Source: an uncultured Ruminiclostridium sp. (GTDB taxonomy: Bacteria; Bacillota; Clostridia; Oscillospirales; Ruminococcaceae). From it: a stretch of DNA of 64,000 bases. A model generated the notes under the pieces. The model had not been told where the DNA came from and ran no database searches. It saw only the letters and a program-made list of their open reading frames with translations. Within the stretch, counting starts at the first letter, position 1, and each line of letters opens with the position of its first letter. The position numbers and the translations under genes were made by a program. This document shows, in pieces, positions 1 through 18,644 of the stretch. The stretch is taken from the NCBI GenBank assembly GCA_947594425.1, contig CANQED010000001.1, forward strand, positions 62,001 through 126,000. The letters are read 5' to 3'.

Positions 1-49
1 AAATATGCATTAAGCATAAATATTGTCTTAATTAAAGGCCGCAAAATAT

Positions 50-241: not shown

Positions 242-290
242 ATGCTCCCCTCCTATCATACTTATTTAGTAACAGTCTTTTGTTAATAAT

Positions 291-324
291 TTTGAGCGGC
301 GACCGAAAACGGTCGACGCTCAAA
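291..324 (-). terminator. Strong hairpin after the precursor genes
   Basis: TTTGAGCG and CGACCG pair with CGGTCG and CGCTCAAA around an AAAA loop, with one bulged base on each side. On the minus strand the stem is followed by a weak A/T stretch rather than a clean T run. It could be an inefficient terminator or an RNA-stabilising end for the abundant precursor message, with limited read-through to the next small gene. Confidence 0.5.
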
Positions 325-333
325 ACATCAAAC

Positions 334-663
334 TTAGCAAACGCCAAAGGTTTTGTACACCCAGTCACAGAATTTACCGCCGTATTTCCAGCCTAATTTT
401 AACGCGCCTACGCAAATGGATATGGTCTCCTGCAATCCAAAGCCCGCGCCGCCCGAGACCTCGTCAAGAGATTCGGCGTCAAGCTCTGACGACGTATTCA
501 TTTTTACGAGGCTGTTTGACAATTGCTGAACATCGCTTTCAGAAAGCTCAACACCGTTCTCGGCAAAAGCCTTGCTGAGGTCATTCATACTTTTGAGCGA
601 GTCCAAATTGTTCATAAACTCGGGATCGTTCAACAACTCTACGATTTTTTCTTCTTTAGTCAT
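334..663 (-). CDS. Nif11-like double-glycine bacteriocin precursor 1
   Basis: This 109-residue precursor has an acidic helical leader (1-72) ending in ELDAESLDEVSGG, followed by a 37-residue core (73-109). That layout is typical of Nif11-like leaders cut by C39 peptidase exporters. The core is Gly-rich and aromatic with three cysteines (84, 99 and the last residue, 109) and few Ser/Thr. The ATG at 663 is used because AAGGAAC precedes it; a start further upstream would run into the neighbouring precursor gene. The second precursor lies 11 bases upstream and the matching export genes are in the same operon. I see no LanM, cyclodehydratase or radical SAM gene in the window, so the core may be unmodified or disulfide-bonded. 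The product should be exported and may kill or signal to related bacteria; that activity is inference. Confidence 0.75.
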   Translation of the reverse strand: MTKEEKIVELLNDPEFMNNLDSLKSMNDLSKAFAENGVELSESDVQQLSNSLVKMNTSSELDAESLDEVSGGAGFGLQETISICVGALKLGWKYGGKFCDWVYKTFGVC

Positions 664-674
664 TTTAATGTTCC

Positions 675-1001
675 TTATCTGCGCTTTAATGCACGAGCAC
701 CGTAGCCTGTGAAGAAGCCTATTGCCGCAGAGCCGATAGCAAAGCATGCCAAGCAGCTTGCTGTAATAAGTATTCCGCCCGAAACATTGTCGAGATCCGA
801 CGCGTCTAATTCGCCGTTCTTAGAGACTGCCGCGGATTCTTTTACCATAGAAGCGATATCCTCCTCGGATAACTGTACTCCGTAATCGGCGAAAAGCTTT
901 TGACACTCCCGGTCGGTCTCCACCGTATTAAGCTTTTCGATAAACTCGGGATTTTCGAGCAGCTTGCTTGCCTCTTCAAATCTTTTCTCAATTTGTGCCA
1001 T
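675..1001 (-). CDS. Nif11-like double-glycine bacteriocin precursor 2
   Basis: This 108-residue protein has a leader (1-76) ending in ELDASDLDNVSGG and a 32-residue core (77-108). The core is very hydrophobic and Gly/Ala-rich, holds a C-x-x-C pair at residues 83 and 86, and ends in a basic tail (ALKRR). The leader is clearly homologous to that of the next gene (NPEF, L-S-E, ELDA-S-LD-VSGG), but the cores are unrelated, as expected for fast-evolving bacteriocins. The ATG has GGAGG nine bases upstream. The hydrophobic core with a cationic end suggests a membrane-active peptide, possibly a two-component pair with precursor 1. A GxxxG-like pattern (GSAAIG) fits helix packing but is not proof. Confidence 0.75.
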   Translation of the reverse strand: MAQIEKRFEEASKLLENPEFIEKLNTVETDRECQKLFADYGVQLSEEDIASMVKESAAVSKNGELDASDLDNVSGGILITASCLACFAIGSAAIGFFTGYGARALKRR

Positions 1002-1056
1002 TTTGATATTCCTCCGTATAAATTTTTATTTTTCAGCATCTCTGCTGTCATCTATA

Positions 1057-1084
1057 TATACACGTCAAAACCGAAAGTGTTGCA
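1057..1084 (-). promoter_or_regulatory. Candidate ECF-type promoter of the precursor genes
   Basis: On the minus strand TGCAAC is followed by 16 bases and TGTATA, with CGTGTATA straddling the -10 region. ECF promoters of Bacillota often read TGAAAC-N16-CGTATA, so this is a near match. It lies between the transporter gene and the two precursor genes, and the operon encodes an ECF sigma factor. A local sigma-to-precursor circuit is plausible but not shown. Confidence 0.4.
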
Positions 1085-1091
1085 AAAAAAT

Positions 1092-3659
1092 TTATACAAT
1101 TTGTCTGCTTGCCAAATTATAGAAGAGCGAGCGGTTGTTCATAAGCTCCTCGTAGGTGCCCTGCTCGACTATATGCCCCTTGTCGATAACGATTATCCTG
1201 TCGCATTTAATAATGGTGCTCAGCCTATGAGCGATGACTATCCTTGTCGCGTCCATCTTTTCGAGAGCATCGCACACCATACCCTGAGTGATATTGTCAA
1301 GGGCACTTGTAGCCTCGTCAAAAAACACTATCTTCGGGTTTGATATTATCGCGCGGGCAATAAGTATCCTCTGCTGCTGTCCTCCCGAAATAGTGCCGCA
1401 ATCCTCCGAAAGCACGGTATTAAGCTTCATGGGCATAGCGTCTATATCATCCTTAAGTCCAACGGCCTCTACGACCCTTTCGACGTCCTTTACGGTAGCC
1501 CGGGGCGCGGTTATGGTTATATTTTCAAATATGCTCCCGGATATGAGCTTTCCCGACTGCAAGACTACGCCCATCTTTTTGCGAAGCTCTCTTTTATCAA
1601 TGCTTTCGAGATCCTTGTTGTCGTAGTATATTTTACCGGAGGTAGGCTTTTCAAAGCCGAGCATAAGCTTCATAAGCGTGGATTTTCCGCAGCCTGACGA
1701 GCCGATAAGCCCTACATACTCGCCGGGCTTGATATTGAGCGATATTTCATCCAGCACAAGCGGGCTGTCCTGCTCATATGCAAAGGACACATTGTTTATT
1801 TCTATCTGACCGCTGATATCCCCGGGCAGCTCTTTAGCCTCGTCATATTCGGGAAGCTCCGTCAAAACGGGCATAAGTCTGTCCATGTTGGGCTTTTCGC
1901 TCTTATACGAAACCGCGGCGTTTACCAGCCGGAGAAAATATGCGGAAAACGCGCCGAACAAAGAGCTGAACGCGATAAACGTACCAAGCCCTATGCTTGT
2001 GCCGCCTTTTATTATCAACAGATAGAATACTATCGAGAAAATGCTGCCGGATATCATATTTAAAACATCGCCGAGATCGGATATCCTTTCTCTTTTTTCC
2101 TCGGTGTTTCTTTGATGCACATACGGCTTAAGGTATTGATAAACCGCATAGTCCTCCGCTCCCGCGATCCTTATTTTTGATATCCCGCTTAAAAGCTGAA
2201 ACATTATCGAGCTTGTTTTGCCGTCATATTCGATAGCCGAGGTCTTGTATTTAAGAGCTCGGACGGTGATAAGATAGTATACCGCGCCGAACAGCAGCAG
2301 CATTGCCGCCCCTACTAAAGTAAGCACAACGGAGTACCCGAGCATTTTGACTAAATATACCGCCGAAATGACCAGAGCCGCCGCCATCGACAATACTATA
2401 TTTATTATCCTGTTTGCAAGGGCTCCCGCGCCTATTACCCTTTGCGCAAGGTCAGCCGACTCGTATTTTCTGAAAAAGCTCTCGGGCAAATTAAACAGCC
2501 TATCATAAACCGCATTTTGTATATCGTAGGATATCCTGCTTGATATTCTGAAGGATGCTATATTTTTTACTATAGAAAACATTACGTTTGCTATCATAAA
2601 GGATATCAAAAGACATCCGATCTGGACGATAACGTTCTTTTCGCCCAACGGTATATATGTATCATAAATGCTCTGGCTTATGCTCGGGGTCAGTATCCCT
2701 ATAAGCGACGTTATCACGGTCAATACGGTCAGCAAAACAACATCCGAGGCTCTGACCTTTTTAAGGCAAAATCTCAATATATCCTTTTTGTCGGTCTGTT
2801 TATTCGGAAAAGGCGTATACACCATATATGCCTTTGGCGATATGCTCGCCTCGGTTCGCTTATTAGCGGGCAATTCTACCCCGTTTTCGACGTCCCACAG
2901 CCTATACGAATGAGTGCCCTTAGACAGGCAGACTATAGGTCTTCCGTCGTCGGCAAAGGCTAAAAACGAGCCGCAGTCCTGCTTTATCCAGCCCCTTGAC
3001 AAAACGATCTCGCGATAAGAAAAATGCGATATCCTCGCAATATCCGAAACCGTATGCTCATCCTTGCAGGCCTCTTTTATCTTTTCATATGGGGCGATGG
3101 ATATCCCCTGCTTTTTGCACAAGAGCTTCATTGCGTCGTATAATGGGCTGCTCTCGCTGTCGTACTCGAATATATTGTCGTCGATAGCTTTTTTTGAAAA
3201 AGAGCGGTATATCAAAGACAGTATATTGTCCGAGGTGCTTTCGCGTCTGTTTTGGGTCCGTCTGATAAAGCCGTCCTCGGTCACGGTGTTAAATCTGTAC
3301 CGGTCTACTAATCCGCCGTTAAAGCCCTCCTTTTCATAATTCTTTATCCCCGCCTTTTTAGCAAATCGCGTTCTTAATACTTTTGTAGAGCCGTTTTGTA
3401 TAACTTGAAGCGAGGCGCTGTCGACCGCCGCAAGGCAAAATCTCCATTCTTTGTATTCGTTGTCTTTATAAGAAAAGCTCGGTATAACTTCATTCTTTTC
3501 AGCTTGATAGATAAAAGAACGCCGTCCCATACCGCCGTCTTTCAGCGGAACGATATACACCAAAACAGCGCCGTCTAAGACCTTATACGCATCAGCGGCA
3601 TTATCGGTCATATATGTCTCTCCGCCTTTAAGAGAAAACGAATTTTCATTTTCGAGCAT
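1092..3659 (-). CDS. NHLM-type bacteriocin ABC transporter, ATP-binding/permease, no peptidase
   Basis: This 855-residue exporter half has a long N-terminal region (about 1-300) lacking the C39 peptidase signature, a membrane domain (about 310-600) and an ABC ATPase. The ATPase has Walker A GSSGCGKST near 653, signature SGGQQQR near 756 and Walker B FFDEATSALD near 780. This layout matches the second ABC protein of NHLM (nitrile hydratase leader microcin) systems, which works with a peptidase-containing partner and a HlyD-like protein, both encoded just upstream here. Start choice is open: ATG at 3659 has AAGGAG nine bases before it, and ATG at 3611 has GGCGGAGAG. It probably forms a heteromeric export complex in the cytoplasmic membrane for the two Nif11-like precursors. 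Confidence 0.85.
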   Translation of the reverse strand: MLENENSFSLKGGETYMTDNAADAYKVLDGAVLVYIVPLKDGGMGRRSFIYQAEKNEVIPSFSYKDNEYKEWRFCLAAVDSASLQVIQNGSTKVLRTRFAKKAGIKNYEKEGFNGGLVDRYRFNTVTEDGFIRRTQNRRESTSDNILSLIYRSFSKKAIDDNIFEYDSESSPLYDAMKLLCKKQGISIAPYEKIKEACKDEHTVSDIARISHFSYREIVLSRGWIKQDCGSFLAFADDGRPIVCLSKGTHSYRLWDVENGVELPANKRTEASISPKAYMVYTPFPNKQTDKKDILRFCLKKVRASDVVLLTVLTVITSLIGILTPSISQSIYDTYIPLGEKNVIVQIGCLLISFMIANVMFSIVKNIASFRISSRISYDIQNAVYDRLFNLPESFFRKYESADLAQRVIGAGALANRIINIVLSMAAALVISAVYLVKMLGYSVVLTLVGAAMLLLFGAVYYLITVRALKYKTSAIEYDGKTSSIMFQLLSGISKIRIAGAEDYAVYQYLKPYVHQRNTEEKRERISDLGDVLNMISGSIFSIVFYLLIIKGGTSIGLGTFIAFSSLFGAFSAYFLRLVNAAVSYKSEKPNMDRLMPVLTELPEYDEAKELPGDISGQIEINNVSFAYEQDSPLVLDEISLNIKPGEYVGLIGSSGCGKSTLMKLMLGFEKPTSGKIYYDNKDLESIDKRELRKKMGVVLQSGKLISGSIFENITITAPRATVKDVERVVEAVGLKDDIDAMPMKLNTVLSEDCGTISGGQQQRILIARAIISNPKIVFFDEATSALDNITQGMVCDALEKMDATRIVIAHRLSTIIKCDRIIVIDKGHIVEQGTYEELMNNRSLFYNLASRQIV

Positions 3660-3713
3660 ATATTATTTCTCCTTTAACATTGCATTCTGCCGATATACGT
3701 TATCTTCGCTTTA

Positions 3714-5858
3714 TTATTGCGAAGAAACGAACCGCTTATAATATCCGTCCATTTCGATAAGCTCATCGTGAGTACCGCGCTCGACTATCCTGCCCTTATC
3801 CATAACTATTATCTGATCGCAGTCTCTTATGGCGCTTAGCCTATGAGCCACCACAACACAAGTGCAGCCTCTGCGCTTGATATTATCCATAATTTGCTTT
3901 TCAACTAACGGGTCAAGGGCGCTAGTTGCCTCGTCCATTACCAAAACGGTGGGGTTTGTCGCCAGCGCTCTTGCTATCTCCAATCTTTGACGCTGTCCGC
4001 CCGAGAGATTAGCTCCGCCCTCCGAAAGGACATAGCTGTATGCGCCCGGCTTTAGTGAGATAACATCGTGTATGCACGCGTCCTTTGCGGCGGCTATCAT
4101 ATCGGCCTCGGATATGCCCGAATTCCACATAGTCAGATTATCGCGTACGGTCCCCGAAAAAAGAGTTATATTCTGACTTACCGTGGATACGCTAGCGCTG
4201 AGCACCTGCATGGGTATTTCGTCGGCGGGTATGCCGTCTAAAAGATACTCGCCCTGCCAGGGTCTATACAACCCGCTGACGATTTTTGATACGGTGGATT
4301 TGCCGCAGCCCGACAGCCCTACAAAGGCTATAGAAGAGCCGCATTTTATTTTAAATGAAAAGTCCGCGACAACAGGCGGCTTTAATCTGCTGTATCCGAA
4401 CGCGATATTATTTAGCTCGACAGAGCCCTCGAGCTTGGCGGTTATTTTTCTCTTTTGCTGTGCGTCGGAATATTTTTCGTCTATAGGATATTTCATAATA
4501 TCCTCTACCCTGTTTATATCGGCTTTGGTGGTCTGGATACTTTTTACAAATCCGAGCAGGGCGTTTAACGGCTGTGAAAAGGAGCTGAACAAAGAGGTAA
4601 ACGCCACAAGCATTCCGACGGTCATATCGCCGTTTATTACAAACATTCCGCCGATGATCAATATCAAAACATCTCCCGCCATCTTTACCGCGTCGGGGAC
4701 GGCGTTTATAACGCTTTGCATCTTGCTCAGCCTTTGCTCGGTGGATATGGCTTTGGCGCTGTGCCCGAGTATGCGGCATATGTACTCGTTTTCCGCGCCC
4801 GAGGCCTTAAGAGTATCGGTTATGCTGAGTCCCGCGCATACCGCGCCGGTAAGCTTGCCGCTGTCCTGCTGAAGCTTTATAGACGCGTTTGATACGTTGT
4901 CGGAAGTTATTTTAACGACAGCAAGGTCCACTATGGCAAAAATCAACGCCACACCTGTCAGCGCGGGGTTATATACTATCAACATCACTAAGTAAAACAG
5001 CGCCACAAAGATATTAAGCGCAGTCTCGGCAAGCTCTCCCGCCAAAAACGAGCTGACGTTTGAATTGTTGCTGACTCTGCTTGTGAGATCTCCCACATAC
5101 CTCTGGTCAAAAAAGCTTACCGGAAGCCTCAGCAGCTTGTAAAGAAATTCTCTCGCAGACAGCAAAACAGTCTTTTTCTGAAATCTTGCCAACACTATAT
5201 TTCTATATATAGTGAGCACGGTCTGCAATACCACCGCAGCCCCCATAAACAGCAAAAACTGCACAAATCCCGAGGTATTTCCTCCTACTAAAATATCGTC
5301 CATAAATACCTGCGAAAGGACCGGCAGCACGACCCCCGGAAATACAAGCAAAAATCCCACGAACAGCAGCTTTGCTATAATGGGATACTGACCGCGAAGC
5401 CTGTCGGAAATAAAAGAGAACAGCGTGTTCTTTTTCTTTTCCTTTTTAAAATCCGCGGTTTTTTCAAAGGTCAAGACAACTCCCGTAAAGCCGTCGTCGA
5501 GCTCCTCTAACGTCAGCTTTCTCCGACCGAGAGCGGGGTCGTTGATATACGCGCTTTTCCCTTTGACGCCCTCGAATACAACAAAATGGTTAAAATTCCA
5601 GTGTATTATGCAGGGGGTCTTTGTTTTAAGCAGCTCAGAAGGCTCTTTTCTGTATCCGTGACAGTCAAGACCGTACTTTTTCGCGCATCTCATCAGGTTT
5701 CCGGCATTGCAGCCGTCGCGGGATACGCCTGTTTCTATTCTCATCTGTTCGAGCGGGACATTTTTGCCGAAATACGCAAAGATCATACTGAGCGAGGCGG
5801 CCCCGCACTCCGTTGCTTCCATCTGGAATACAGTCGGAGTTTTAGTATAATTGTTCAT
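3714..5858 (-). CDS. Peptidase-containing bacteriocin ABC exporter (C39 peptidase)
   Basis: This 714-residue protein has an N-terminal C39 cysteine peptidase (about 1-135), a six-helix membrane domain (about 155-450) and an ABC ATPase (about 475-714). The peptidase shows Gln12 (oxyanion hole), catalytic Cys18 in ECGAAS, His91 in NHFVVF and Asp107 in NDPALG, so all key residues are present. The ATPase has Walker A GLSGCGKST, signature LSGGQRQR and Walker B VMDEATSALD. Such proteins cut leaders after double glycine and export the core peptide, which fits the two VSGG precursors at the operon's end. It corresponds to the peptidase/ATP-binding member of NHLM systems. Confidence 0.9.
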   Translation of the reverse strand: MNNYTKTPTVFQMEATECGAASLSMIFAYFGKNVPLEQMRIETGVSRDGCNAGNLMRCAKKYGLDCHGYRKEPSELLKTKTPCIIHWNFNHFVVFEGVKGKSAYINDPALGRRKLTLEELDDGFTGVVLTFEKTADFKKEKKKNTLFSFISDRLRGQYPIIAKLLFVGFLLVFPGVVLPVLSQVFMDDILVGGNTSGFVQFLLFMGAAVVLQTVLTIYRNIVLARFQKKTVLLSAREFLYKLLRLPVSFFDQRYVGDLTSRVSNNSNVSSFLAGELAETALNIFVALFYLVMLIVYNPALTGVALIFAIVDLAVVKITSDNVSNASIKLQQDSGKLTGAVCAGLSITDTLKASGAENEYICRILGHSAKAISTEQRLSKMQSVINAVPDAVKMAGDVLILIIGGMFVINGDMTVGMLVAFTSLFSSFSQPLNALLGFVKSIQTTKADINRVEDIMKYPIDEKYSDAQQKRKITAKLEGSVELNNIAFGYSRLKPPVVADFSFKIKCGSSIAFVGLSGCGKSTVSKIVSGLYRPWQGEYLLDGIPADEIPMQVLSASVSTVSQNITLFSGTVRDNLTMWNSGISEADMIAAAKDACIHDVISLKPGAYSYVLSEGGANLSGGQRQRLEIARALATNPTVLVMDEATSALDPLVEKQIMDNIKRRGCTCVVVAHRLSAIRDCDQIIVMDKGRIVERGTHDELIEMDGYYKRFVSSQ

Positions 5859-5876
5859 TTTTTCTCCGATCCGTAT

Positions 5877-6692
5877 TTATGCCTTAAATAGTCTTGTTAT
5901 GGGCGCGCTTTGGTCGACGACGATATTAGCGGTAACTATCGTACCGCTCGGGACGGGAATATCTTTGCCTGCGCTTGACGTCCAGTATAAGCCGCTGATT
6001 GCGTTTTGGTCTTTTTTTATCTTACAGATAACGGCGACTACGGGTCCGTTAGAGACAAATTGCTCGGTTACAAGGTTTTCGCTTCCTAATATGTAAGCCA
6101 TAGAGCTTGTGCTGGACGCGGACGTCTCGGTAAAAAGGACCTCTCCCTCCATATGCCCGTACTTTTGCGAGTCGACCGAAGAGGGATATATCAATACATT
6201 CATACCGCTTTTAAATTTTTGCGACACGGCCAAAGGGACATAGCATACCAAAAGCTTTTCGCAGTCAGCATCGACGCTTATCCTCGCTATCTGAGAGCCC
6301 GACAACACCGGGTCGCCCTCATTTACCGACAGTGCGCCTACCCTGCCAAAGCACTGCGAGGTGACTCTTTCAAGAGTGTTGTCCGCCGTCCTTATATCCG
6401 CGATCACTTCATCCTTGGAAACGCCGTCCCCTGAGCTTTTATAAATTTTCTCCACGACGCCGCTCAAGTTAGTGTATATTGCCGCGGCGTTGTCGGGATA
6501 TACGACTACGCCCGATACGGTCTCGGTCGTCGGCAGAGTTCCGAAAACAGACCATAATATCGTCACCGCTATAATAAGAAATACCGCAATCAGCGCTAAC
6601 CACGACAAAGGCGACGATATCTTGATCATTCTGTCGAGCTGCTCGGGATTAGACAGCTTATCCAGAGCTGATTTTCTGTACAATTGTGCCAT
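5877..6692 (-). CDS. HlyD-like NHLM bacteriocin secretion protein
   Basis: This 271-residue membrane fusion protein starts MAQLYRKSALDKLSNPEQLD, the characteristic opening of NHLM secretion proteins (a run ending in L-S-x-PEQLD). One transmembrane helix follows at about 31-50, then an extracytoplasmic biotinyl-lipoyl-like and beta-barrel part. I use the ATG at 6692 because AAGGTGG precedes it; an upstream GTG overlaps that site. It is encoded between the sigma factor gene (5 bases away) and the peptidase exporter. It should connect the two ABC proteins to the exterior of a monoderm envelope during peptide export. Confidence 0.85.
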   Translation of the reverse strand: MAQLYRKSALDKLSNPEQLDRMIKISSPLSWLALIAVFLIIAVTILWSVFGTLPTTETVSGVVVYPDNAAAIYTNLSGVVEKIYKSSGDGVSKDEVIADIRTADNTLERVTSQCFGRVGALSVNEGDPVLSGSQIARISVDADCEKLLVCYVPLAVSQKFKSGMNVLIYPSSVDSQKYGHMEGEVLFTETSASSTSSMAYILGSENLVTEQFVSNGPVVAVICKIKKDQNAISGLYWTSSAGKDIPVPSGTIVTANIVVDQSAPITRLFKA

Positions 6693-6697
6693 ATAAT

Positions 6698-7222
6698 TTA
6701 CCACCTTATATTATTTTTATCAAAATATTCTTTTATTTTATCAAGGGATCTTGATAATCTTGATCGTATATTTTCGGGCGTAAGCCCGGTCATTTCGGAT
6801 ATTTCCGTTGAATTCTTTTTTAAATAATATCTGTATATTATAATTTTTCTGTTGAGCTCGGGAAGAGTTTCGAGCGCGTTAGCTAAGTGCTCTCTCATCT
6901 GGGTTAGAGCGACGGCTTGGATTATATCATCGGCGTAATTCTTTTCATCACTCATAACGTCTTCGTTTAGCTGAACATATTCCTTTTTATCTCTGTAATA
7001 ATTCTTTATCCTGTTATTAGCCACGACGAAAAGCCATGTCTGAAAGGAAGCCTTATCAGGGTCAAACTTATCGTAATTTCCCCAACATGCGACAAAAGAG
7101 TCCATAGCAATATCCTCGGCTATATGTATATCCGATACTTTTTTATATACATAAGCGCTCAGCCGTTGATAATATTTTAAAAAGTACCGCTCAAAATCTT
7201 TTCTTTTCGCGTCATCGTTCAT
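6698..7222 (-). CDS. ECF sigma-70 family RNA polymerase sigma factor
   Basis: This 174-residue protein has region 2 (about 10-75, with AEDIAMDSFVACW and F-x-TWLFVVANNRIKNYYR) and region 4 (about 115-168, with LPELNRKIIIYRYY and a helix-turn-helix around EISEMTGLTPENIRSRLSR). The length and the lack of region 3 fit the ECF group. No anti-sigma factor gene is adjacent, so control may be transcriptional. It is the first gene of the bacteriocin export operon and the first gene outside the invertible segment, and would be the first transcribed if the internal promoter were flipped. The nearest purine-rich ribosome binding site (AAGGAG) is 14 bases from the ATG, which is long. A near-consensus ECF promoter precedes the precursor genes, a likely target. 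Confidence 0.88.
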   Translation of the reverse strand: MNDDAKRKDFERYFLKYYQRLSAYVYKKVSDIHIAEDIAMDSFVACWGNYDKFDPDKASFQTWLFVVANNRIKNYYRDKKEYVQLNEDVMSDEKNYADDIIQAVALTQMREHLANALETLPELNRKIIIYRYYLKKNSTEISEMTGLTPENIRSRLSRSLDKIKEYFDKNNIRW

Positions 7223-7329
7223 AGTTCGCTGTGGCGCTCCTTGCTCCTAGAATTTAAAATATCCTGAGCACTCCCGTGAGGTATGTAGGTAGGTAAGAAA
7301 AGCTAAATAATGTGATATATATTTTCCGG

Positions 7330-7351
7330 GAGTAAATCACTCTGAGAAAAA
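7330..7351 (+). repeat. Left 22-bp inverted repeat of the switch
   Basis: It starts GAGTAAATCAC and continues TCTGAGAAAAA. All 22 bases are the exact reverse complement of 8531-8552. It ends one base before the recombinase stop codon. Its inner 12 bases (ACTCTGAGAAAA, 7339-7350) occur again as a direct copy at 8549-8560. Confidence 0.85.
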
Positions 7352-7352
7352 T

Positions 7353-8363
7353 TTACTTCTTTAGCAGCTCGCACAGCTTGTCCATATTTTTTCGCTTTAG
7401 CTCCATAGAGGGATGGACATATCTGTTTAGAGTTATATTGACGCTTGCGTGTCCTAATATCTCACTCAAGCATTTGATATCAAACCCTAATTCAACGCAC
7501 CTTGTCGCAAAGGTATGCCGCAGCGCGTGAAAATTAACGTTGCTTATCCCGCAGCATTGCTTTACCTTGCTGAAATGATTTTCCATACACCTCGGTTCAA
7601 TACATTTATCCTTTCTGCCGGTGAGTATAAAAGCGTCCGGAGCTTGTTCAAAACGTGCGAGCAGAGGCATAATGCTTAACGGTATCGGGATCTTTCTGAC
7701 CGAGCAGTCGCTTTTCGGCGGCATTATTACTAATTGCGTTTTTCTGCCGTTATCCGCGTTATTTTGTATTCTTTGCATAGTAAAGCAAACATAAATATAT
7801 TGCTCGGTAAAGTTTATATCTTTCCATTTTAGCGCGCATATTTCTCCTATCCTAAGTCCCGTATACAAGGATAAAAGGATACCTAAATAACACGGTGAGG
7901 CATTATTGAACAAATAATTGCTCAGCATAGTCTGCTCGGAGCAGCTCAATATCTTCATCGGCTTTTGCGGCTGTTTTATCGAAATATCTTTTATATCAGC
8001 CACATCTAAGCTTTTTTCTCTTTTTGCATAGGCAAATATGCTTTTCAATAACGATAGAATGCAACTTACCGTTTTGGGAGATAAGCAGGCGGATTTTTTC
8101 TCTTTATGCTCTAACAAAGAGCCGCAGAATTGCCGCACATCGTCTCGAGCGATATCCTCAATGCTTTTCTCCCCGAAAACAGGCAGCAGATACCGCCTTA
8201 TAATATCGGCATATTTGACTAAGCTTGACAGCTTAAGCTCAGCCTCTTTGACTTTTAGCCATTCCTGCGCAAATGCTTTAAATTCGGGCTTTTCGGGCGG
8301 ACTTGTTATTGCGCTGTCAAGCCGCATTGTACTTTCTTTGTGCTCTTTTATGTCCTTTGACAT
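7353..8363 (-). CDS. Tyrosine recombinase (phage integrase family), probable invertase
   Basis: This 336-residue protein has an N-terminal SAM-like core-binding domain (about 30-115) and a C-terminal catalytic domain (about 140-330). The catalytic residues are all visible: Arg171 in TGLRIGE, a Lys near 217, His279 and Arg282 in HALRHTFA, His305 in LGHASV, and nucleophile Tyr315 in NRYVHP. The ATG at 8363 is used because GGAGGTGG precedes it. The gene is fully inside a 22-bp inverted repeat, with its stop one base from the left copy. No excisionase, replication or cargo gene is nearby, which argues against an ordinary integrated element and for a dedicated invertase acting on the flanking repeats. 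It is co-oriented with the bacteriocin operon, so in this orientation weak read-through into the sigma gene is possible. Confidence 0.88.
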   Translation of the reverse strand: MSKDIKEHKESTMRLDSAITSPPEKPEFKAFAQEWLKVKEAELKLSSLVKYADIIRRYLLPVFGEKSIEDIARDDVRQFCGSLLEHKEKKSACLSPKTVSCILSLLKSIFAYAKREKSLDVADIKDISIKQPQKPMKILSCSEQTMLSNYLFNNASPCYLGILLSLYTGLRIGEICALKWKDINFTEQYIYVCFTMQRIQNNADNGRKTQLVIMPPKSDCSVRKIPIPLSIMPLLARFEQAPDAFILTGRKDKCIEPRCMENHFSKVKQCCGISNVNFHALRHTFATRCVELGFDIKCLSEILGHASVNITLNRYVHPSMELKRKNMDKLCELLKK

Positions 8364-8430
8364 ATAAACCACCTCCGATATTATTTTACCATTATCGAAT
8401 ACAATTTGAACAACCAAAAATTGATAATTT

Positions 8431-8462
8431 TCATTATCGGAAAACAAAATACCTGATAATGA
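8431..8462. promoter_or_regulatory. Inverted ATTATC motif upstream of the recombinase
   Basis: TCATTATC (8431-8438) and GATAATGA (8455-8462) form perfect 8-bp arms 16 bases apart. Another CATTATCGAA lies near 8390. It sits between the recombinase start and the outward promoter, so it may be an operator or an accessory recombinase site. The evidence is positional only. Confidence 0.3.
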
Positions 8463-8483
8463 GTTATTTTTTTGTGGGTTTTA

Positions 8484-8512
8484 TTGACAGCATTTTGTTT
8501 TTATAGTATAAT
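8484..8512 (+). promoter_or_regulatory. Consensus promoter carried by the invertible segment
   Basis: TTGACA (8484-8489), a 17-bp spacer and TATAAT (8507-8512) match the housekeeping consensus exactly. It points right, away from the recombinase gene, and its start site would fall just inside the right inverted repeat. To the right there is no plus-strand gene for more than 6 kb, only a terminator and the antisense end of a permease gene. It therefore has no target in this orientation and would gain one, the sigma factor operon, only after inversion. Confidence 0.75.
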
Positions 8513-8530
8513 AAAAGGCATAAAAATTAT

Positions 8531-8552
8531 TTTTTCTCAGAGTGATTTACTC
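8531..8552 (-). repeat. Right 22-bp inverted repeat of the switch
   Basis: This is the exact reverse complement of 7330-7351. It overlaps a further palindrome: TTTTCTCAGAGT (8532-8543) and ACTCTGAGAAAA (8549-8560) are perfect 12-bp arms around GATTT. The right end thus carries two opposed core motifs while the left end carries one. Confidence 0.85.
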
Positions 8553-8560
8553 TGAGAAAA

Positions 8561-8607
8561 GCCACAGCAAGTCTTGTTTAACAAGGCTTGCTGTGGCTGT
8601 TTTATAT
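8561..8607 (+). terminator. Strong terminator facing the invertible promoter
   Basis: GCCACAGCAAG (8561-8571) pairs with CTTGCTGTGGC (8587-8597), with further pairing inside the loop, followed by TGTTTTATAT. It would stop transcripts from the internal promoter in the present orientation. On the minus strand the same hairpin is followed by TTTTCTCA, so it may also end the transporter operon to the right. Confidence 0.8.
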
Positions 8608-8669
8608 ATAATAAGCTTATTTACGTTTTGTAAAGAAAATCTACGCCGTCAGCATTTTACGGCGAAAGC

Positions 8670-10559
8670 CTAGCTTACGCTCCTCCCCGCCTCACTCTTA
8701 CTTATAGCAAATTCCTTATCCCCCGACTGATAATAGATATTATCCTCGTCGCTCTTAAGCGAGCTCGTATTAATGTGAGCGCCCGTCAGTGGGTGCGTGC
8801 TTTTATCCGCAAAAAGGTATGCCTTTAATTCTCGGTCTGAATTGACGTAATATATGCCGCGGCTGTCGTACTGGTATTCTTCTATCGCCTCGTCGATAAG
8901 ACATTCTAAATCGCCGAAATTGTTAAGGGCGAAAATTTTATCGTTAGCAAGGCAGTTTAGCCGCCCGTCGGCGATAAAGATATCCTCAATAAAATAATTC
9001 GCCGACTGCTGTGGGCTATAATAATTGTACGCAAGCCCGAGAGCGGTCTTTGAAACGCCAGTGTCGGAGTACGGCTCTTGATACATCGTATCGCGCGCCA
9101 TATCCGACAGTCTGAAGCGAATTATGCTCTGCGGGTGGGAAAAGGTCAGTATATACAAGTTGTCCTCGGTCGCACACATATCTTGTATTAAAGGCTGCCC
9201 GTCAAAGTAAGAAAACGGTATCCGTTCGCGCTCGCCGGTCTGCTTGTCGGTGAGATAAAGCATATCATACGAGCCGCTTTCGCCCTCCTCGGGCGTTTCG
9301 GTCTCAAAAAGATATCGGCTGTTCTCGCAAATATCGGGGTCGCCGTCAAATTTGTCGTACCCGCCGAGCTCGGTGTAAGGCTTTTCCACCGCGCTGCAGG
9401 AGGTGAGCAGCAGTATAACCGGCAGCAGGACAAAGCCGAGCGCTTTCTTACCTGTTAGGCGGTTTTTGCCCGACGCGGCAAGCACAATGCCGCCTATGAT
9501 AACGACGATTATCGAGCAGATGACGATTGCGGCGAATGACCCCGACGGCACGCCGTGAAACATTATCGGCACTTCGCCCTCGAAAGAGGTCACATCAGGC
9601 TCGACTACATCGCCGAAAAAGTACCCGTACCCTTTCATAAGCCCCGTCGGCAGAAAATACGCCTGACTGTCTCTTTCGGCGAGATAATCCGCCGTAATAG
9701 GCAGTGCCGCATACGGGAACACCGCCGCGACATAATTTTTTGAAAAGCGCGCGGTCAGCATAGCGAGCATACATATCAGCATATATCCTATCGGCTTTAT
9801 CAGCTGTACCGCGATAAACGCACCGATTATGCTGATATCATACTCGGTCGCGGAGTACCTCTCGAGCGAGCAAAGGCTAAAGCCCCAGTATTCGGCGGGG
9901 AGCTGTGCCGACAGCTTGATAAGATCTATCACGGACAATGCCGCGCTTGTGAGTATCACCGTTATCATCATAACGGCGACCTTTGACAGCATTGTACGCT
10001 GCTGACCGTTGGTGGTGGTCTTAAGTATCATATCCTTTTTCCCGCTTTGCTCGGTCATTATCGCATATGCCCCGCAAAACGCCGCAGCGAGCAAAAAGAA
10101 ATAATTCACCGCGTCCTGCTCCATAACGGGGACGCTGACGGTCGGCAGCAGCATACGCTGCTCGCGGTCGGCGATAACGTACTGATACCTGTCGAACACC
10201 GCCGTTATTATATCTTCTTTATCGAGAATGTCTTGGTACGGCTCAAGCGCCGCCGTCAGCTCCTCGCCGCTTATCTCGCCCTGTCGAAATCTGTCGAGCA
10301 TATCATCCTCCGCCGACTGACCTAAGAGCAAAGCCTCGTAGCTGTCTTTTATAATTTTCTCCTTTTCGTCGGTGAGCCGACCCGTAAGCGGCTGTATCAT
10401 CTCGAGATAATGCGCCCTGTCGGTAGAGGTGTTAAAGCCGTAGGTCTGCGTCATACCCTCGGGCAGAGAAAGTATCGCCGCCAAGACGACCAAAAGCATG
10501 ATCAATGCGCCGTACTGCTTTATAAGCAGCTTTTTCGCCTCGTATATAAAAACTCTCAT
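8670..10559 (-). CDS. ABC-2 type permease fused to an extracytoplasmic domain
   Basis: The first 388 or so of 629 residues form an ABC-2-like permease: a cytoplasmic start (MRVFIYEAKKLLIKQY), a helix near 16-34, a large loop and several helices from about 150. The last helix of that part runs into LLLTSC at about residue 388, which looks like a lipobox. It is followed by some 240 hydrophilic residues (YDMLYLTDKQTGERERIPFS and similar) resembling repeated beta-propeller or DUF5050-like strands. That tail is similar in style to the operon's lipoprotein. The gene overlaps the upstream permease gene by 4 bases (ATGA) and is last in a four-gene operon with an ATPase. The substrate is unknown; exporters of this type often handle peptides or antibiotics. 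Confidence 0.75.
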   Translation of the reverse strand: MRVFIYEAKKLLIKQYGALIMLLVVLAAILSLPEGMTQTYGFNTSTDRAHYLEMIQPLTGRLTDEKEKIIKDSYEALLLGQSAEDDMLDRFRQGEISGEELTAALEPYQDILDKEDIITAVFDRYQYVIADREQRMLLPTVSVPVMEQDAVNYFFLLAAAFCGAYAIMTEQSGKKDMILKTTTNGQQRTMLSKVAVMMITVILTSAALSVIDLIKLSAQLPAEYWGFSLCSLERYSATEYDISIIGAFIAVQLIKPIGYMLICMLAMLTARFSKNYVAAVFPYAALPITADYLAERDSQAYFLPTGLMKGYGYFFGDVVEPDVTSFEGEVPIMFHGVPSGSFAAIVICSIIVVIIGGIVLAASGKNRLTGKKALGFVLLPVILLLTSCSAVEKPYTELGGYDKFDGDPDICENSRYLFETETPEEGESGSYDMLYLTDKQTGERERIPFSYFDGQPLIQDMCATEDNLYILTFSHPQSIIRFRLSDMARDTMYQEPYSDTGVSKTALGLAYNYYSPQQSANYFIEDIFIADGRLNCLANDKIFALNNFGDLECLIDEAIEEYQYDSRGIYYVNSDRELKAYLFADKSTHPLTGAHINTSSLKSDEDNIYYQSGDKEFAISKSEAGRSVS

Positions 10560-11728
10560 GCCGCACCTCCTCTCACCTTTTTAACCGTTCGTAAGCGGCA
10601 TATGATATGCAGCGCCGCCGTTAAAATGACCGTCAAGGCAAATGTAAATATCGGCGCGGGCACGGGTATATCGAAAATTCTCACCGCCGCAAACTGTGAC
10701 AGCTGATTTTTCATATTGACAAGATTTATCGGCGAAAGGCAGCTCGGGATATGCTCGCTTAACAGGACGAGCCCCATTATTGCCGCTAAGCTGCCCGCTA
10801 TGCACCCGCCGATATTCTTGCCTATGGTGGAAATGCACATGACTGCCTCGCCTACAAACAGGTACGCCGCTAATTTTCCTATAAACGACAATAAGATCCC
10901 GCCGCCTATCGTCACCGCAAACGGCGTAAAGCGATAGTCGGTCATAGCGTACAGCGGCATATTTAAATTGTCAAAGCCGTACAGCATTCCGTAAAAGCCC
11001 AGATCGACAAGCGAAAATACTACCGTCGCCGCAAATATCATAATGTACATCGAGCAGTGCTTTGCCCAAAATACCGAGCCCGTCCTGCGGCATGAGCGTA
11101 TTATCCTGTCCGTGCCGGTGCTTTTCTCCTTAACAAACGTCGGAGCGAAAGCAAACACTATCATAAGTATGATAAGCAGCGACGAAAACTCATAATCAAA
11201 ATACAGCGAATACCCCTTATATTGAGATATGGCGGGTATCTTTCTGCCGACGTACAGGGACTTTATAAGCTGATTTTTATTTACCTCATAATTATTTCGT
11301 CCGGTGTAAAACTCTATAAAATCGTCGGCGTTTTGCCTCAGCTCCAAAATGTCGTTAGGGTAAAGATACGCCTCGCGCATAGCCTCCTCAAAGCGCGTTA
11401 TATCCGTCCAGTCCGAAAAGGCGTACCGAGTGTAATATTCATCGCTCGGGGTCGTGGTGTAATTGCCGCTCGATATTATCTTATCCATTTTGGAGTGATA
11501 ATCCACCACTCTCTGTATGCTCTCTGGGGTTATATCCCCGCCGAATTCGTCGTATATGGGGGAGCTTGCGACCGAGCCCGTCTTAGTAACGGCGTCATAA
11601 TCCATGCGATAATAGGTCTTAAGATTTTCAAACAGCTTGTACACGTCTATCAGCAAAAAGGCGGCGAGCAGAATGAGCAGCGACGCTTTAAGCACGTTTT
11701 TCTTTAGTTCGTAGATAAAAAGCTTCAT
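10556..11728 (-). CDS. ABC-2 type transporter permease
   Basis: This 390-residue membrane protein begins MKLFIYELKKNVLKASLLIL, closely resembling the start of the next permease in the operon. It has one N-terminal helix, a large extracytoplasmic loop (about 35-180) and five or six C-terminal helices. ATG at 11728 is chosen because GGAG lies eight bases before it; the next upstream in-frame ATG has no such site. It follows the ATPase gene directly and overlaps the next permease by 4 bases, so the two permeases probably form a heterodimer with that ATPase. The substrate is not evident. Confidence 0.8.
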   Translation of the reverse strand: MKLFIYELKKNVLKASLLILLAAFLLIDVYKLFENLKTYYRMDYDAVTKTGSVASSPIYDEFGGDITPESIQRVVDYHSKMDKIISSGNYTTTPSDEYYTRYAFSDWTDITRFEEAMREAYLYPNDILELRQNADDFIEFYTGRNNYEVNKNQLIKSLYVGRKIPAISQYKGYSLYFDYEFSSLLIILMIVFAFAPTFVKEKSTGTDRIIRSCRRTGSVFWAKHCSMYIMIFAATVVFSLVDLGFYGMLYGFDNLNMPLYAMTDYRFTPFAVTIGGGILLSFIGKLAAYLFVGEAVMCISTIGKNIGGCIAGSLAAIMGLVLLSEHIPSCLSPINLVNMKNQLSQFAAVRIFDIPVPAPIFTFALTVILTAALHIICRLRTVKKVRGGAA

Positions 11729-11729
11729 A

Positions 11730-12593
11730 TCACATATCTCCAAAGCGGTATATGCACACGTCCTCGAGCGTAGGCTCGACCTTTACCGCGCCGCTTATCG
11801 GGCAGTCGTCGGATATTATGCGCAGTGTATACTTTCCGCCCGTGCTGACGGCGTTAGACACCCGCATCCTGCTCATATAGTCCATGACCTCGCCGCTTAA
11901 CACTTCACATTCCCACACCTTGCCGTCCGCGTCGGCGCAAAGCTCCTCCTGCGAGCCGCAGCTTATTATCCTGCCCTTATCCATAAGCACGACGGTTTTC
12001 GCGATATAGGCTATATCCGTCACGATATGCGTCGCGAGTATGACTATCTTGTCCGCCGCAAGCGAGCTTATCACATTGCGAAAGCGTATGCGCTCTTTTG
12101 CGTCAAGACCCGCCGTCGGCTCGTCAAAGATAAGCACCTTAGGCTCGCCGATTATCGCCTGAGCTATACCTAGCCGCTGCTTCATGCCGCCCGAAAAAGC
12201 GCCTATTTTTCTGTCCGCGTCCTCTCTTAGATTTACCTTAGAAAGAATATCAAGGGCGTATAAATTGTCATCCTCGGTCTTGTATTTTTTAAGCGTCATT
12301 ATGTACTTGATATAATCCTTAGCGGTAAAGCTGCGGTAAAAGTCCATCCCCTGCGGCATAAAGCCCAAGTGCGACAGATAGTCATGATCACTGCCGTCGC
12401 TGAAAGCTATGCTGCCGCTGTCACGCGATATTATCCCCGTGATAATATTTATCAGCGTGGACTTTCCCGCGCCGTTTGGACCGAGTATGCCGTATACGCC
12501 CTCGGTCATGGTAAGGGTAAAGTCCGTTAGGGCGTTTTTGCGCTTTTTGCCCTTATAATAGGACTTGGTTATTCCGGATAATTTAAGCTCCAT
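11730..12593 (-). CDS. ABC transporter ATP-binding protein
   Basis: This 287-residue ATPase has Walker A GPNGAGKST, a Q-loop, signature SGGMKQRLGIAQA, Walker B VLIFDEPTAGLD and the switch His in ATH. This is the BcrA-like subfamily that drives ABC-2 exporters. About 75 C-terminal residues after the ATPase core (from roughly 215) form the extension common in this group. AGGAG precedes the ATG. It lies 1 base from the lipoprotein gene upstream and the permease gene downstream, so all four genes are one operon. Confidence 0.88.
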   Translation of the reverse strand: MELKLSGITKSYYKGKKRKNALTDFTLTMTEGVYGILGPNGAGKSTLINIITGIISRDSGSIAFSDGSDHDYLSHLGFMPQGMDFYRSFTAKDYIKYIMTLKKYKTEDDNLYALDILSKVNLREDADRKIGAFSGGMKQRLGIAQAIIGEPKVLIFDEPTAGLDAKERIRFRNVISSLAADKIVILATHIVTDIAYIAKTVVLMDKGRIISCGSQEELCADADGKVWECEVLSGEVMDYMSRMRVSNAVSTGGKYTLRIISDDCPISGAVKVEPTLEDVCIYRFGDM

Positions 12594-12594
12594 A

Positions 12595-14742
12595 TCATTC
12601 TCCTATGTCGTGGGTTTCGTTTTTGCGGTCGGTTATCACGGTAAACTTTTCATTACCGCAGGCTATGACTGCCTCGGCGGCGTCGGCTGTAAGGTCTGTC
12701 TGACTGATAAGCTCGCCCGTAGCGGTATCGTATATCCTTACATAAGTATTTGACAGCGGTAAGGCGATCCCCGTCTGCGAGGTGTCAAACTCGGGACAAA
12801 GGGCGAGTATTTTGCTGCCGTCGGGAGTGATTGTGCAGCTGTGACATTCATTCAGCGAGGCGGTGGGTATCTGCCTGAATTTTCTCTGCTTTTTGTCAAA
12901 AAGGGTTATGCTGCCCGGGTCGTTGCTCGTGCGGTCGGGCTTTCCCGTGACGTAAAGGGCATAATCTCCCGCGCAGAGTATCCCCTGCGAGCCCGTGCCC
13001 GACATTACTGTCATAAAGTCTGCTTTTATTATCTCGCCCGTGGAAAGGTCGACTGCTATCGGGGTATCCTTTGTGCCGGATGGGTTGTTGTCGCTGAGCA
13101 CTGAGTAAAGCATATCGTCCTTAACGGTGATATACTTATCCACTCCCAAATTATAATTGCGCGGCAGCTCACAAAGCATTTTCTTATCAGAGCCGTCGGG
13201 CTCGGATATATACAGCTGTATCGCAAAATCGTTAATGTCGGTATCGGAAAAAACCGTTTCGGCGTACACTATATGCTTATCGTCGTAAGGGTAAATTATA
13301 TCGATATTCTTTTCGTCCGAGTGTATCTCTTCTTCTATATTAAAATTATGGTCGCATATATAATATTCCGTATCTCCCGAGCCGTACAAATTATGGACAA
13401 TGATATGCTTATCGGTTATCTGAGGATATAATACTCCGAAATTATCGTCGGGACCCGATTGCTCTGAGTCCTCGCTTTTGGGGAGTACAGGCGTAATATC
13501 GGATATGCTCACCTTATTTACGACCTTTTCGTTATCGGTATCATAGTAGTATAATTCTTGTCCGTAAACATCATGCAGCAATGTGATACGCTTTCCGTCC
13601 TGCTCATAATACCCGAACCTCGCGCAGTTCTGCAATATCGGCAGGGCGTCGGGGTCCTCGGGCGTATCGCTCGGCGGGTCTGTATAGTCGGGTATGCTTT
13701 CGGGAGCGGCGGTATCGGCGGGAGGCTCGGTCTTAAACTCAAAGTCGCTGTTTACAACAAGGCTTGCGGGGGCGCTCTTTACGCTGAAAAATGTATTTGC
13801 GGCATCTTTCATAACGGCGGTGAGCTGCACCGTGTCACCCCGCTCGACCTCGTCGAGCTTTATCGCGGCGGTATAAATATGCTTATCCTTGACCGATATC
13901 TCTACATATTCTTTGCCGCCGTTAAAGGTAGTGAGTTGATTATTTTTAATCACACCCAGAAGATATGTCCCCGCGTCAAAGTTTGTCATAACCGCGTCAA
14001 AGGACAGACCGCCGTCCTCGCTAAGCGCCAAAGGTCCGTTTATATCGTTATCTTGATATGCGAAAAAGTACTCCTGCTCCTCCCTGTATCTCCCGTCCTT
14101 AAACAGCTTGTCGGTGAGCTCATTTGTGATAAGCTGCTCGGTATACTCGGTCGATATCTTAGGGGATGCCGTCTTAGGCTTTTGCTTTAATTCTATCGTG
14201 TCGGGCAGGCTGAAGTCGAGCGTGCGGGAAAAGCCGTAGGTCGGCCAGTCCTCGGTTGCAATAAACGCCGCGTTGGGGCAGGTCATAAAGGACATTTTCA
14301 GCTTGTCCTTGTCCGCGTCCTGCTCGAGCACCTCGGGGTCGAGTGTAAGCTCAAACTCGCGGCTCTCTCCCGGGGGAACGGCATCTAATACCAAGACCGT
14401 CGCGTCCTCCTGCCCGCAGCCCGAAAGCTTTTGATATACGCCGTTTATGCTGCAGGCTATGCCCGGCGCCCAGTCGATGGTATTTTCTTCATTCATCGTT
14501 ACCGAGACCTTCACCGTGACGGGCTGTCCGTCGTACACGATAGGCTTATTGTCGTTGATAGAGTGATCCCACCCTCCGCGAAGAGATTGACCGGTGCTCT
14601 GCATAATGTTCTCGATAACGTCGTTGTCCTCGGATACCGAGAACACATCCTCTACCGAGCCGTAGTCCTCCGTGCTTTGAGCGCAGGAGGTGTTTATCGC
14701 AAGGGCGATAAAGAGCAGTATTGCCGATATTTTTTTGTACAT
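12595..14742 (-). CDS. Large secreted lipoprotein of the ABC-2 operon
   Basis: This 715-residue lipoprotein has signal MYKKISAILLFIALAINTSC with Cys20 as the lipidated residue. The ATG at 14742 has AAGGAGG, so a longer upstream reading is rejected. Residues about 40-330 look like beta-sandwich modules, then a Pro/Thr/Asp-rich linker (about 335-365), then a probable beta-propeller (about 370-715) with repeated strands such as DNEKVVNKVSISD and GEIIKADF. It is first in the operon with the ABC-2 ATPase and permeases and may capture or sense the substrate outside. I do not recognise a precise family. Confidence 0.7.
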   Translation of the reverse strand: MYKKISAILLFIALAINTSCAQSTEDYGSVEDVFSVSEDNDVIENIMQSTGQSLRGGWDHSINDNKPIVYDGQPVTVKVSVTMNEENTIDWAPGIACSINGVYQKLSGCGQEDATVLVLDAVPPGESREFELTLDPEVLEQDADKDKLKMSFMTCPNAAFIATEDWPTYGFSRTLDFSLPDTIELKQKPKTASPKISTEYTEQLITNELTDKLFKDGRYREEQEYFFAYQDNDINGPLALSEDGGLSFDAVMTNFDAGTYLLGVIKNNQLTTFNGGKEYVEISVKDKHIYTAAIKLDEVERGDTVQLTAVMKDAANTFFSVKSAPASLVVNSDFEFKTEPPADTAAPESIPDYTDPPSDTPEDPDALPILQNCARFGYYEQDGKRITLLHDVYGQELYYYDTDNEKVVNKVSISDITPVLPKSEDSEQSGPDDNFGVLYPQITDKHIIVHNLYGSGDTEYYICDHNFNIEEEIHSDEKNIDIIYPYDDKHIVYAETVFSDTDINDFAIQLYISEPDGSDKKMLCELPRNYNLGVDKYITVKDDMLYSVLSDNNPSGTKDTPIAVDLSTGEIIKADFMTVMSGTGSQGILCAGDYALYVTGKPDRTSNDPGSITLFDKKQRKFRQIPTASLNECHSCTITPDGSKILALCPEFDTSQTGIALPLSNTYVRIYDTATGELISQTDLTADAAEAVIACGNEKFTVITDRKNETHDIGE

Positions 14743-14912
14743 TTTTTCCTCCTTAAAAAAGCATAATTTACCCCTCTGAATATATAATCCCGAAAAAGGG
14801 GGATTTGTTACAGTTGGGGGAAAAATTTTTTGAAAAAATTTTGGGGTAAAGCGTTGTGATGATTTAAGTCCTTGCGCCAAAGCGTCAAATTCCTGCATAC
14901 AGCGGCAAGGGG

Positions 14913-14941
14913 TAGACAAATCCGATACTTTGTGATACAAT
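14913..14941 (+). promoter_or_regulatory. Promoter of the MacB-like operon
   Basis: TAGACA (14913-14918), a 17-bp spacer and TACAAT (14936-14941) lie about 80 bases before the first start codon. The 5' end of the gap (14760-14880) holds only A/T runs and no other clear element. Confidence 0.6.
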
Positions 14942-15019
14942 AGCATTAGATAAGGTGAAAATATAACAGCGGTCTTTGATGATATATCGGCAAAGCCTTA
15001 TGCAGGTATAGGAGGCACT

Positions 15020-16062
15020 ATGCGCCAATTATTTAGCAAAAGTGGGACGATAATCGCATTCTTTGCGAGTACGTTTTTTCTGTGTACGTTTATAGTATCG
15101 GTGCTGCTTAACAGCAACTATGAAGACATATATAAACAGTTTTCCGAAAATGCAGAACACGTTACCGTAATTCAAGAAAATACCGCAGATAACGCCCTGT
15201 CATATTCGGATATGTCAAAAATACTTTCTTCATATCCGATAAAAGGCGCAATATTTTTTGATATAGGCGGCGGCAGAACGGGACATATGGTGTATAATTA
15301 CATCGATAATAAAGAGTTTGAGGGCGCGGCAAATATGATAGACGTAAACAGCAAAACGCCCTAAGCGATAATCAAGCCTATGTATCAGGCGTATTGTATG
15401 CCCATAGACGGAACGCAGACGATAAATTTGATGGGGAGCGACCACGAGGTGATCGGGCTGAATATTTACGCGGGCTTAGGCGGAGTGGATTTTATCTGCA
15501 ATACAGCGGGCTTATCGAGCAGCAGTACCAAATTTAAGGGATTGACATTGATAATCGACGCGGGAAAAGACAGTACCTCTGTTACAAGCAGCATTTTAAG
15601 CGAGATAAAAAAGCAAAATGAGAATATAAATTATACCCTTAAAAAGTATCCGATATTTTGAATGAAAGCAGCGGAAAAAGCTCCGACACCGCGATAGTCA
15701 TTATTGCTGTTCTTTTGATAGGCTTACTGCTGCTCATCAACGCGAGCGCTTTTACAAGCTCGTGGATAAATTCCAAAAAATCTGAGATCGCCGCAAGAAG
15801 AATATGCGGAGCTGATAACGCGGATATAAAAAGACGTATTTTTAAAAATCATTTTTTGGTCTGCGCGACGGGCACGCTTATTGGCTTTGTGCTGACCTTT
15901 ATACTGAACATACTTATAGACGTATCGTTTTATATAGGGATTATAAATTGGGCGGCGGGAGCGCTGACGGCGATATTCCTAATAACCGTAAGCAGTATCA
16001 TATCATACGTCGAGGCGGCAAAATACTCCCGTGAGCAAGTAGTGACACTAAGGAGGGAGTAG
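15020..16062 (+). pseudogene. Broken FtsX/MacB-like permease
   Basis: Three consecutive pieces together look like one FtsX-like permease. Piece 1 (15020-15364) has a clean AGGAGG start, one N-terminal helix and ends at an in-frame TAA. Piece 2 continues in the same frame after only that stop codon to 15661. Piece 3 (15658-16062) is in another frame and holds the C-terminal helices and the conserved SEIAARRICGADNADIKRRI stretch. One nonsense codon and one frameshift therefore separate an otherwise complete gene. The intact permease downstream may work alone, or stop read-through/reinitiation may occur; decay is more likely. Confidence 0.75.
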
Positions 16063-16063
16063 G

Positions 16064-17844: not shown

Positions 17845-17857
17845 GGGGTTTTGGGAT

Positions 17858-18040: not shown

Positions 18041-18106
18041 CCTTTACGATCAATATGTGGAAAACTGTCGAGAAGGTTTTAAAGAAATTATCGGAGGAAA
18101 AGTATA

Positions 18107-18313: not shown

Positions 18314-18352
18314 CTGTATTATCAGCGAAATATTGAACAGGGGCGACATATT

Positions 18353-18571: not shown

Positions 18572-18644
18572 TCAATAATTCAAAAACAACCCCATTTTCA
18601 GGGCAAACGAAGTAATTACAATCATTAAAGAACGGAGGAGAGAT

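Follow-up and report, generated by a model that had tools for sequence, protein, structure and literature searches.

A probable self-encoded phase switch ahead of an ECF sigma factor and peptide-export operon in an uncultured Ruminiclostridium

Positions 7330-8552 of the window, i.e., of the 64,000-nt stretch of DNA analysed here, probably form a self-encoded phase switch that gates an ECF sigma factor and NHLP peptide export (Table 1). In the mechanism that we propose, the recombinase encoded by the segment would bind two facing Xer-like sites (12-bp arms, 5-bp spacer) and flip the intervening DNA. In the present (OFF) orientation, a strong outward promoter would give rise to a short transcript ending at the terminator past the right site. 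After inversion, this promoter would face left and drive the ECF gene and then the NHLP exporter and leader-peptide genes, and the recombinase would point at the terminator. The sigma factor may in addition amplify its own operon, and a clonal population would become split into producing and non-producing cells.

Table 1. Features of the invertible segment, its sites and the adjoining operon (window coordinates)
Feature	Position	Strand	Description
Right recombination site	8532-8560	+	29-bp 12-5-12 palindrome TTTTCTCAGAGT-GATTT-ACTCTGAGAAAA; perfect 22-bp arm 8531-8552
Left recombination site	7322-7350	-	Minus-strand reading TTTTCTCAGAGT-GATTT-ACTCCCGGAAAA; perfect 22-bp arm 7330-7351
Outward promoter TTGACA-N17-TATAAT	8484-8512	+	Exact consensus; between recombinase start and right site; 18 bases from the repeat
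Intrinsic terminator	8560-8606	+	Immediately past the right site; stem of 18 pairs (8560-8598), T-rich tail
Tyrosine recombinase, 336 aa	7353-8363	-	Within the repeats; complete; sole gene of the segment
Probable weak recombinase promoter	8383-8391	-	Putative extended -10 TGGTAAAAT just upstream of the ribosome site
ECF sigma factor	6698-7222	-	First gene of the target operon; starts 108 bp beyond the left repeat
NHLP HlyD-type secretion protein	5877-6704	-	TIGR03794 over cut-off; overlaps the ECF gene
NHLP exporter with C39 leader peptidase	3714-5858	-	TIGR03796 over cut-off
NHLP exporter permease/ATPase	1092-3659	-	TIGR03797 over cut-off
Probable precursor peptide 1	675-1001	-	Leader ends SGG; Nif11-like match below curated cut-off
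Probable precursor peptide 2	334-747	-	Leader ends SGG; Nif11-like match below curated cut-off; true start probably inside the ORF

The anatomy of such a switch, consisting of sites, recombinase, promoter and terminator, is present in full. The two arms of the inverted repeat that had been predicted to enclose a complete tyrosine recombinase gene are exact reverse complements of each other (22/22) and do enclose it. No second perfect inverted repeat of at least 15 bp with arms 200-2000 bp apart exists in the 64-kb window, where the runner-up has 14 bp, and the longest perfect inverted repeat in 40 Markov-1 versions of the window had 17 bp. Thus, the 22-bp repeat is far above chance. Tyrosine recombinases of the Xer kind bind arms flanking a short spacer, and the left site shares its inner arm and spacer with the right site; its outer arm, ACTCCCGGAAAA, is degenerate. 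The asymmetric spacers of the two sites face each other and recombination would therefore invert 7330-8552, as facing sites yield inversion and no excision. With facing inverted repeats around a promoter, the segment has the structure of an invertible promoter (inverton). Elsewhere in the own genome, the site had no matches at 0-2 mismatches; at 3 mismatches, the right site's palindromic overlap and three other places were found, as compared with 4 matches of a backward control pattern. Searches of viral contigs with the site pattern gave no matches.

The best start of the recombinase is the ATG at 8363, with GGAGGT upstream. The encoded protein contains the domains PF00589 (Phage_integrase, E 8e-25) and PF14659, and the closest solved structures are the Int proteins 6en0, 6emy and 6emz. 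R171, K217, H279, R282, H305 and Y315 do not vary across 12 aligned sequences; we take these to be the catalytic residues, and the set noticed originally is indeed present. The integrase domain with its R-K-H-R-H-Y residues makes the enzyme a tyrosine recombinase.

The outward promoter was confirmed as an exact match at the position and distance from the right repeat that had been given for it. The exact motif TTGACA-17-TATAAT occurs 6 times in the window vs 0.04 times expected from shuffled sequence, hence it is generally enriched in the DNA of the window. One copy lies inside the segment; five more are found at 30367, 38996, 47440, 50414 and 54855. In the present orientation, the promoter would fire into a strong terminator, as had been claimed: a predicted 94-nt transcript (8519-8612), running through the palindrome into the terminator, folds with -47 kcal/mol, and our terminator scan lists the 8560-8606 hairpin on the plus strand only. 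The original statement that no plus-strand gene follows for more than 6 kb holds as well, since the next plausible one is located only at ~15020 and the shorter plus-strand ORFs before it overlap minus-strand genes. When the segment was inverted in silico, the -10 element ended at 7370 on the minus strand, leaving a leader of 144 nt to the ECF ATG (7222), the ATG included, close to the approximately 140 bases estimated before. A scan of the window found no minus-strand promoter of at least 9/12 between the left site and the ECF start, and Rfam gave no matches in window 1-20000.

The joint matches to TIGR03794, TIGR03796 and TIGR03797 identify the operon to the left as an NHLP export system. 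It has the same three export proteins over curated cut-offs as other NHLP export operons, followed by small leader-peptide genes, but here the operon is preceded by an ECF sigma gene and the invertible cassette. The two precursor peptides are tentative assignments: TIGR03798 matched them with E values of 9e-4 and 7e-4, both under the cut-off, and the GG-type leader ends were judged by eye. If correctly called, their products may be antibacterial and act as bacteriocins. Left of the window, on the same strand, there are a STAS-like gene and then a large gene, both named by eye.

To place this operon among its relatives, we used TIGR03796, which at E 1e-200 matched 46 times in 43 of 396 genomes of the family, 40 of these genomes being over the cut-off. 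The neighbourhoods of 40 of the 45 matches outside the window were fetched, at least 5 of them with <3 kb of upstream DNA; within these, a recombinase relative was found near a single locus (genome G238) and an ECF relative near nine, in various positions. An ECF gene beside NHLP export is therefore not in itself rare. Genome G435 possesses two ECF-NHLP copies, both without a recombinase in the fetched flank, and the copy that was read has TTGAAA-17-TATAAT ~60 bp before the likely ECF start, that is, a fixed promoter. The simplest view is that the cassette supplies a promoter that is fixed elsewhere, as in G435.

Among 71 genomes of the same genus, an ECF relative at E ≤1e-30 was present in two, the own genome and G328, which represents another species of the genus. 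G328 has kept the arrangement, in the same orientation as in the window, with identities of 67% for the recombinase, 73% for the ECF sigma factor, 74% for the HlyD-type protein and 88% and 83% for the exporters. All four sites of the window genome and G328 share the 18-base core TTTTCTCAGAGTGATTTA without a mismatch, and the outer arms differ. In the promoter, both hexamers and the 17-bp spacing are kept; the spacer itself has changed in sequence, as has much of the intergenic DNA. Judged from this alignment, sites, recombinase and promoter are conserved, in line with the expectation that a relative keeping recombinase and operon should also keep repeat and promoter. In G328, the terminator's place is taken by an unrelated hairpin followed by a T-rich tail, which was recognized by eye and by folding; it is absent from the listing of the terminator scan, which considered only loops of 3-8. 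Between its left site and the ECF gene, G328 has a weak promoter-like site (9/12). Beyond the right site, an ABC operon points towards the cassette in the window, and in G328 a plus-strand lipoprotein/ABC operon points away from it (ATPases 48% identical over 208 residues). In G328 the promoter could thus serve the other side as well if the hairpin leaks. Concerning the leader, the degenerate outer arm ACTCCCG of the window could, in the inverted form, pair with CGGGAGT ~50 nt downstream (window 7276-7340); the outer arm in G328 is unlike ACTCCCG.

The other orientation, which the original prediction expected to see in further genomes, was found for relatives of the cassette, in two comparisons, but not at the window locus, where 2 of 2 genomes (own genome and G328) are OFF. 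Flanking genes were compared between loci and four pairs were then compared by DNA. The cassettes of loci L126 and L127 run in the same direction (94.5% identity) and both flanks are reversed (95.8% and 93.8%), with the breakpoints at the repeats. The two loci are short contigs of one draft genome, G371, with 4% estimated contamination, and could stem from a pair of strains binned together or from paralogous loci; in either case the cassette is reversed between the same flanks. L145 (genome G094) and L149 (genome G291) share one flank in direct orientation, in aligned pieces spanning ~9.4 kb, and their cassettes are reversed relative to each other, with a breakpoint at the repeat; L149 ends 135 bp beyond the cassette, so this comparison covers one flank. 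In the remaining two pairs, the cassette alone was in common. Altogether, the gene comparison had listed 15 opposite-side pairs, two of which are supported by flank DNA, the rest being one- or two-gene matches that are mostly weaker. These alignments indicate inversion in relatives of the cassette, and from them we infer that the window copy can invert, too. At least eight locus groups, the window and G328 among them, showed one orientation only, and in the genus of genome G248 the element occurred in 3 of 8 genomes, all three in one orientation.

An orientation census of 72 cassettes gave 32 OFF, 9 ON, 12 with genes on both sides, 8 with genes on neither side and 11 at contig ends (within 500 bp of the end). 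A cassette was called OFF if, within 350 bp, a gene reads outward solely on the side opposite to the promoter's direction, and ON if solely on the faced side; the classes depend on a crude ORF caller and on the 350-bp limit. Contig ends near the repeats fit mixed orientations, and they also fit repeats in general.

The cassette is not confined to the window locus. Relatives of the recombinase at E 1e-40 were found in 68 of 297 genomes of the family, own genome included. In a first set, 31 of 44 loci had facing repeats with a score of at least 16 around the gene (maximum of shuffled flanks, 15). In a larger set of 81 stretches, including the window and G328, facing repeats of the same minimum score enclosed 72 of 87 recombinase genes, the shuffled control being that of the 44-locus set; 2 of these 72 cassettes have odd long repeats that may be artefacts (L129, 181 nt; L138, 55 nt). 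After removal of near-duplicates, an outward promoter matching 11-12 of 12 positions was present in 34 of 67 cassettes and an inward one in 1 of 67, and controls gave 1/66 beyond the right repeat and 0/63 beyond the left repeat. Automatically called spacers were 5 long in 23, 3 in 18 and 7 in 14 of the 67. In a class-wide sample, relatives at E 1e-60 occurred in 18 of 391 genomes, of which four belong to the family of the own genome, itself included. From this sample, 18 of 19 new loci were tested (L248 was left out) and 15 passed the repeat test, although one of the latter, L244 (score 285), is plainly of another kind.

The genes next to these cassettes are diverse. Response regulators of the LytTR type, recognized by similarity to one of them and confirmed by Pfam for two, read outward within 190 bp of 10 of the 72 cassettes. 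The 19 neighbour proteins scanned, not counting the exporter described next, also included very large proteins and dockerin proteins, a signal peptidase, and the products of polysaccharide genes and of a TadZ-like gene; several of the 19 were without a Pfam match. In G126 (L139:6047-9014), a C39 exporter and two small GG-leader peptides are encoded directly beside the cassette, on a contig that ends 212 bp past the cassette's other repeat. In G238 (L192), an NHLP operon without an ECF gene follows behind the recombinase; the outward promoter matches 10/12, the orientation is OFF, and the repeats are imperfect (25 bp, 84%, central 13 bases identical) and below the score-16 threshold. The original reading is supported and is joined by two more peptide-export operons behind such cassettes. 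We give an even chance to a broader view, in which the segment belongs to a mobile family of promoter-flipping cassettes in Clostridia, each combining a recombinase, facing Xer-like sites and a near-consensus outward promoter within about 1.2-1.6 kb. Such cassettes would insert in front of operons and render them phase-variable, the targets being LytTR regulators, ECF sigma factors together with peptide export, pilus and polysaccharide genes, and very large secreted proteins.

The palindromic right site abuts the terminator, which might suggest that the inverted repeats are mere hairpins or terminators and the recombinase an unrelated gene. This is hardly credible given that 72 of 87 recombinase genes are flanked by matched sites and that the inversion breakpoints in relatives coincide with the sites, and the explanation was rejected. 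It is improbable, though less so, that the cassette is mainly a small mobile element with promoters of its own, that inversion and ECF control are side effects and that the orientation at the window locus is fixed. Mobility has evidence on its side. Two cassettes of G094 (L095 and L145) are 92.6% identical at unrelated loci, with the similarity stopping exactly at both repeats (1500 bp were available on each side), which suggests that the cassette moved as a unit. Furthermore, contigs classed as viral carry relatives as well (of 79 loci returned, 23 were checked and 7 had repeats), and similar cassettes sit at three places in the own genome (L083, L084 and L010). However, in 41 of the 72 cassettes a gene reads outward within 350 bp on one side and not on the other, the locus has been retained in G328, and facing sites are generally known to invert and not to excise.

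Another possibility touches the state before inversion rather than the inversion itself. The recombinase promoter might read through to the ECF operon, in which case the present orientation would not be OFF and inversion would change expression from low to high. We regard this as unlikely on balance, yet clearly less so than a cassette that is mainly a mobile element. From the recombinase stop codon to the ECF ATG, the scan listed no terminator, and the present orientation need therefore not be fully silent. Moreover, G328 retains an extended -10 upstream of the recombinase, in the form TGATAAAAT, and the recombinase points at the target in 32 of the 41 cassettes with a single target. The -35 of this promoter is poor, however, and the promoter is probably weak. 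We keep to the reading of a phase switch, although the orientation seen may allow basal expression by read-through from the recombinase.

Our analysis suggests a tyrosine-recombinase counterpart of the Hin promoter switch as the best reading of the segment. In the flagellar phase switch of Salmonella, the invertible H segment contains the recombinase gene and an outward promoter, which drives a neighbouring operon including a regulator; Hin is a serine recombinase and uses a Fis-bound enhancer. The window segment likewise holds recombinase and promoter inside, but its enzyme is a tyrosine recombinase, not a serine recombinase, predicted to act on Xer-like sites, and its target is an ECF sigma factor with peptide export. 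In C. difficile, RecV is encoded elsewhere and serves several sites, in switches such as cmrRST. The likeness lies in a recombinase flipping a segment before a regulatory operon in Clostridia; in the window, enzyme, sites and promoter form one unit.

PMC11892184 links the mainly clostridial inverton group 139 to tyrosine invertase group 35, where linked means intersecting or within 5 kb, and describes orientation shifts in reads. Two group-139 examples given there are segments of ~255 bp, too short for a recombinase; going by these descriptions, the common ground is that tyrosine-type recombinases of Clostridia are associated with invertible segments. In Providencia stuartii, an 844-bp putative invertible segment of a fimbrial locus with 14-bp imperfect repeats is reported to enclose a recombinase ORF (PMC5903667). 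A recombinase is thus enclosed in both cases, but Providencia is a Gammaproteobacterium and the target there is fimbriae. Within the open-licence literature, mostly in the form of titles and abstract openings, we found no invertible promoter joined to a bacteriocin or NHLP operon, and the available text of PMC4272514 mentions a bacteriocin once, when citing work on inversion within a tail-fibre gene. The kind of switch is known, and its tyrosine-recombinase variant with the unusual ECF-NHLP target seems to be new.

If the proposed switch operates, production of secreted, probably antibacterial peptides would be an all-or-none, heritable choice of single cells made via a sigma factor. The cassette family would moreover provide a signature by which self-contained phase switches could be recognized in assemblies without recourse to reads, and a compact one-enzyme toggle that synthetic biology could use.

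Additionally, we noted further cassettes in the same genome. A second self-enclosed one (G000:C1:41417-42872, L078:9418-10873), located ~19 kb to the left of the window, precedes an HTH gene and an FHA-domain gene; its repeats are 25 bp long, and its outward promoter matches the consensus exactly. The three similar cassettes L010, L084 and L083 are located on contigs C4, C11 and C25, respectively, and have a 20-bp repeat in common. L083 and L084 are 89% identical over 2.2 kb, and L010 was placed with them by its repeat. Each of these three cassettes has a second, distant recombinase gene directly outside the repeat.
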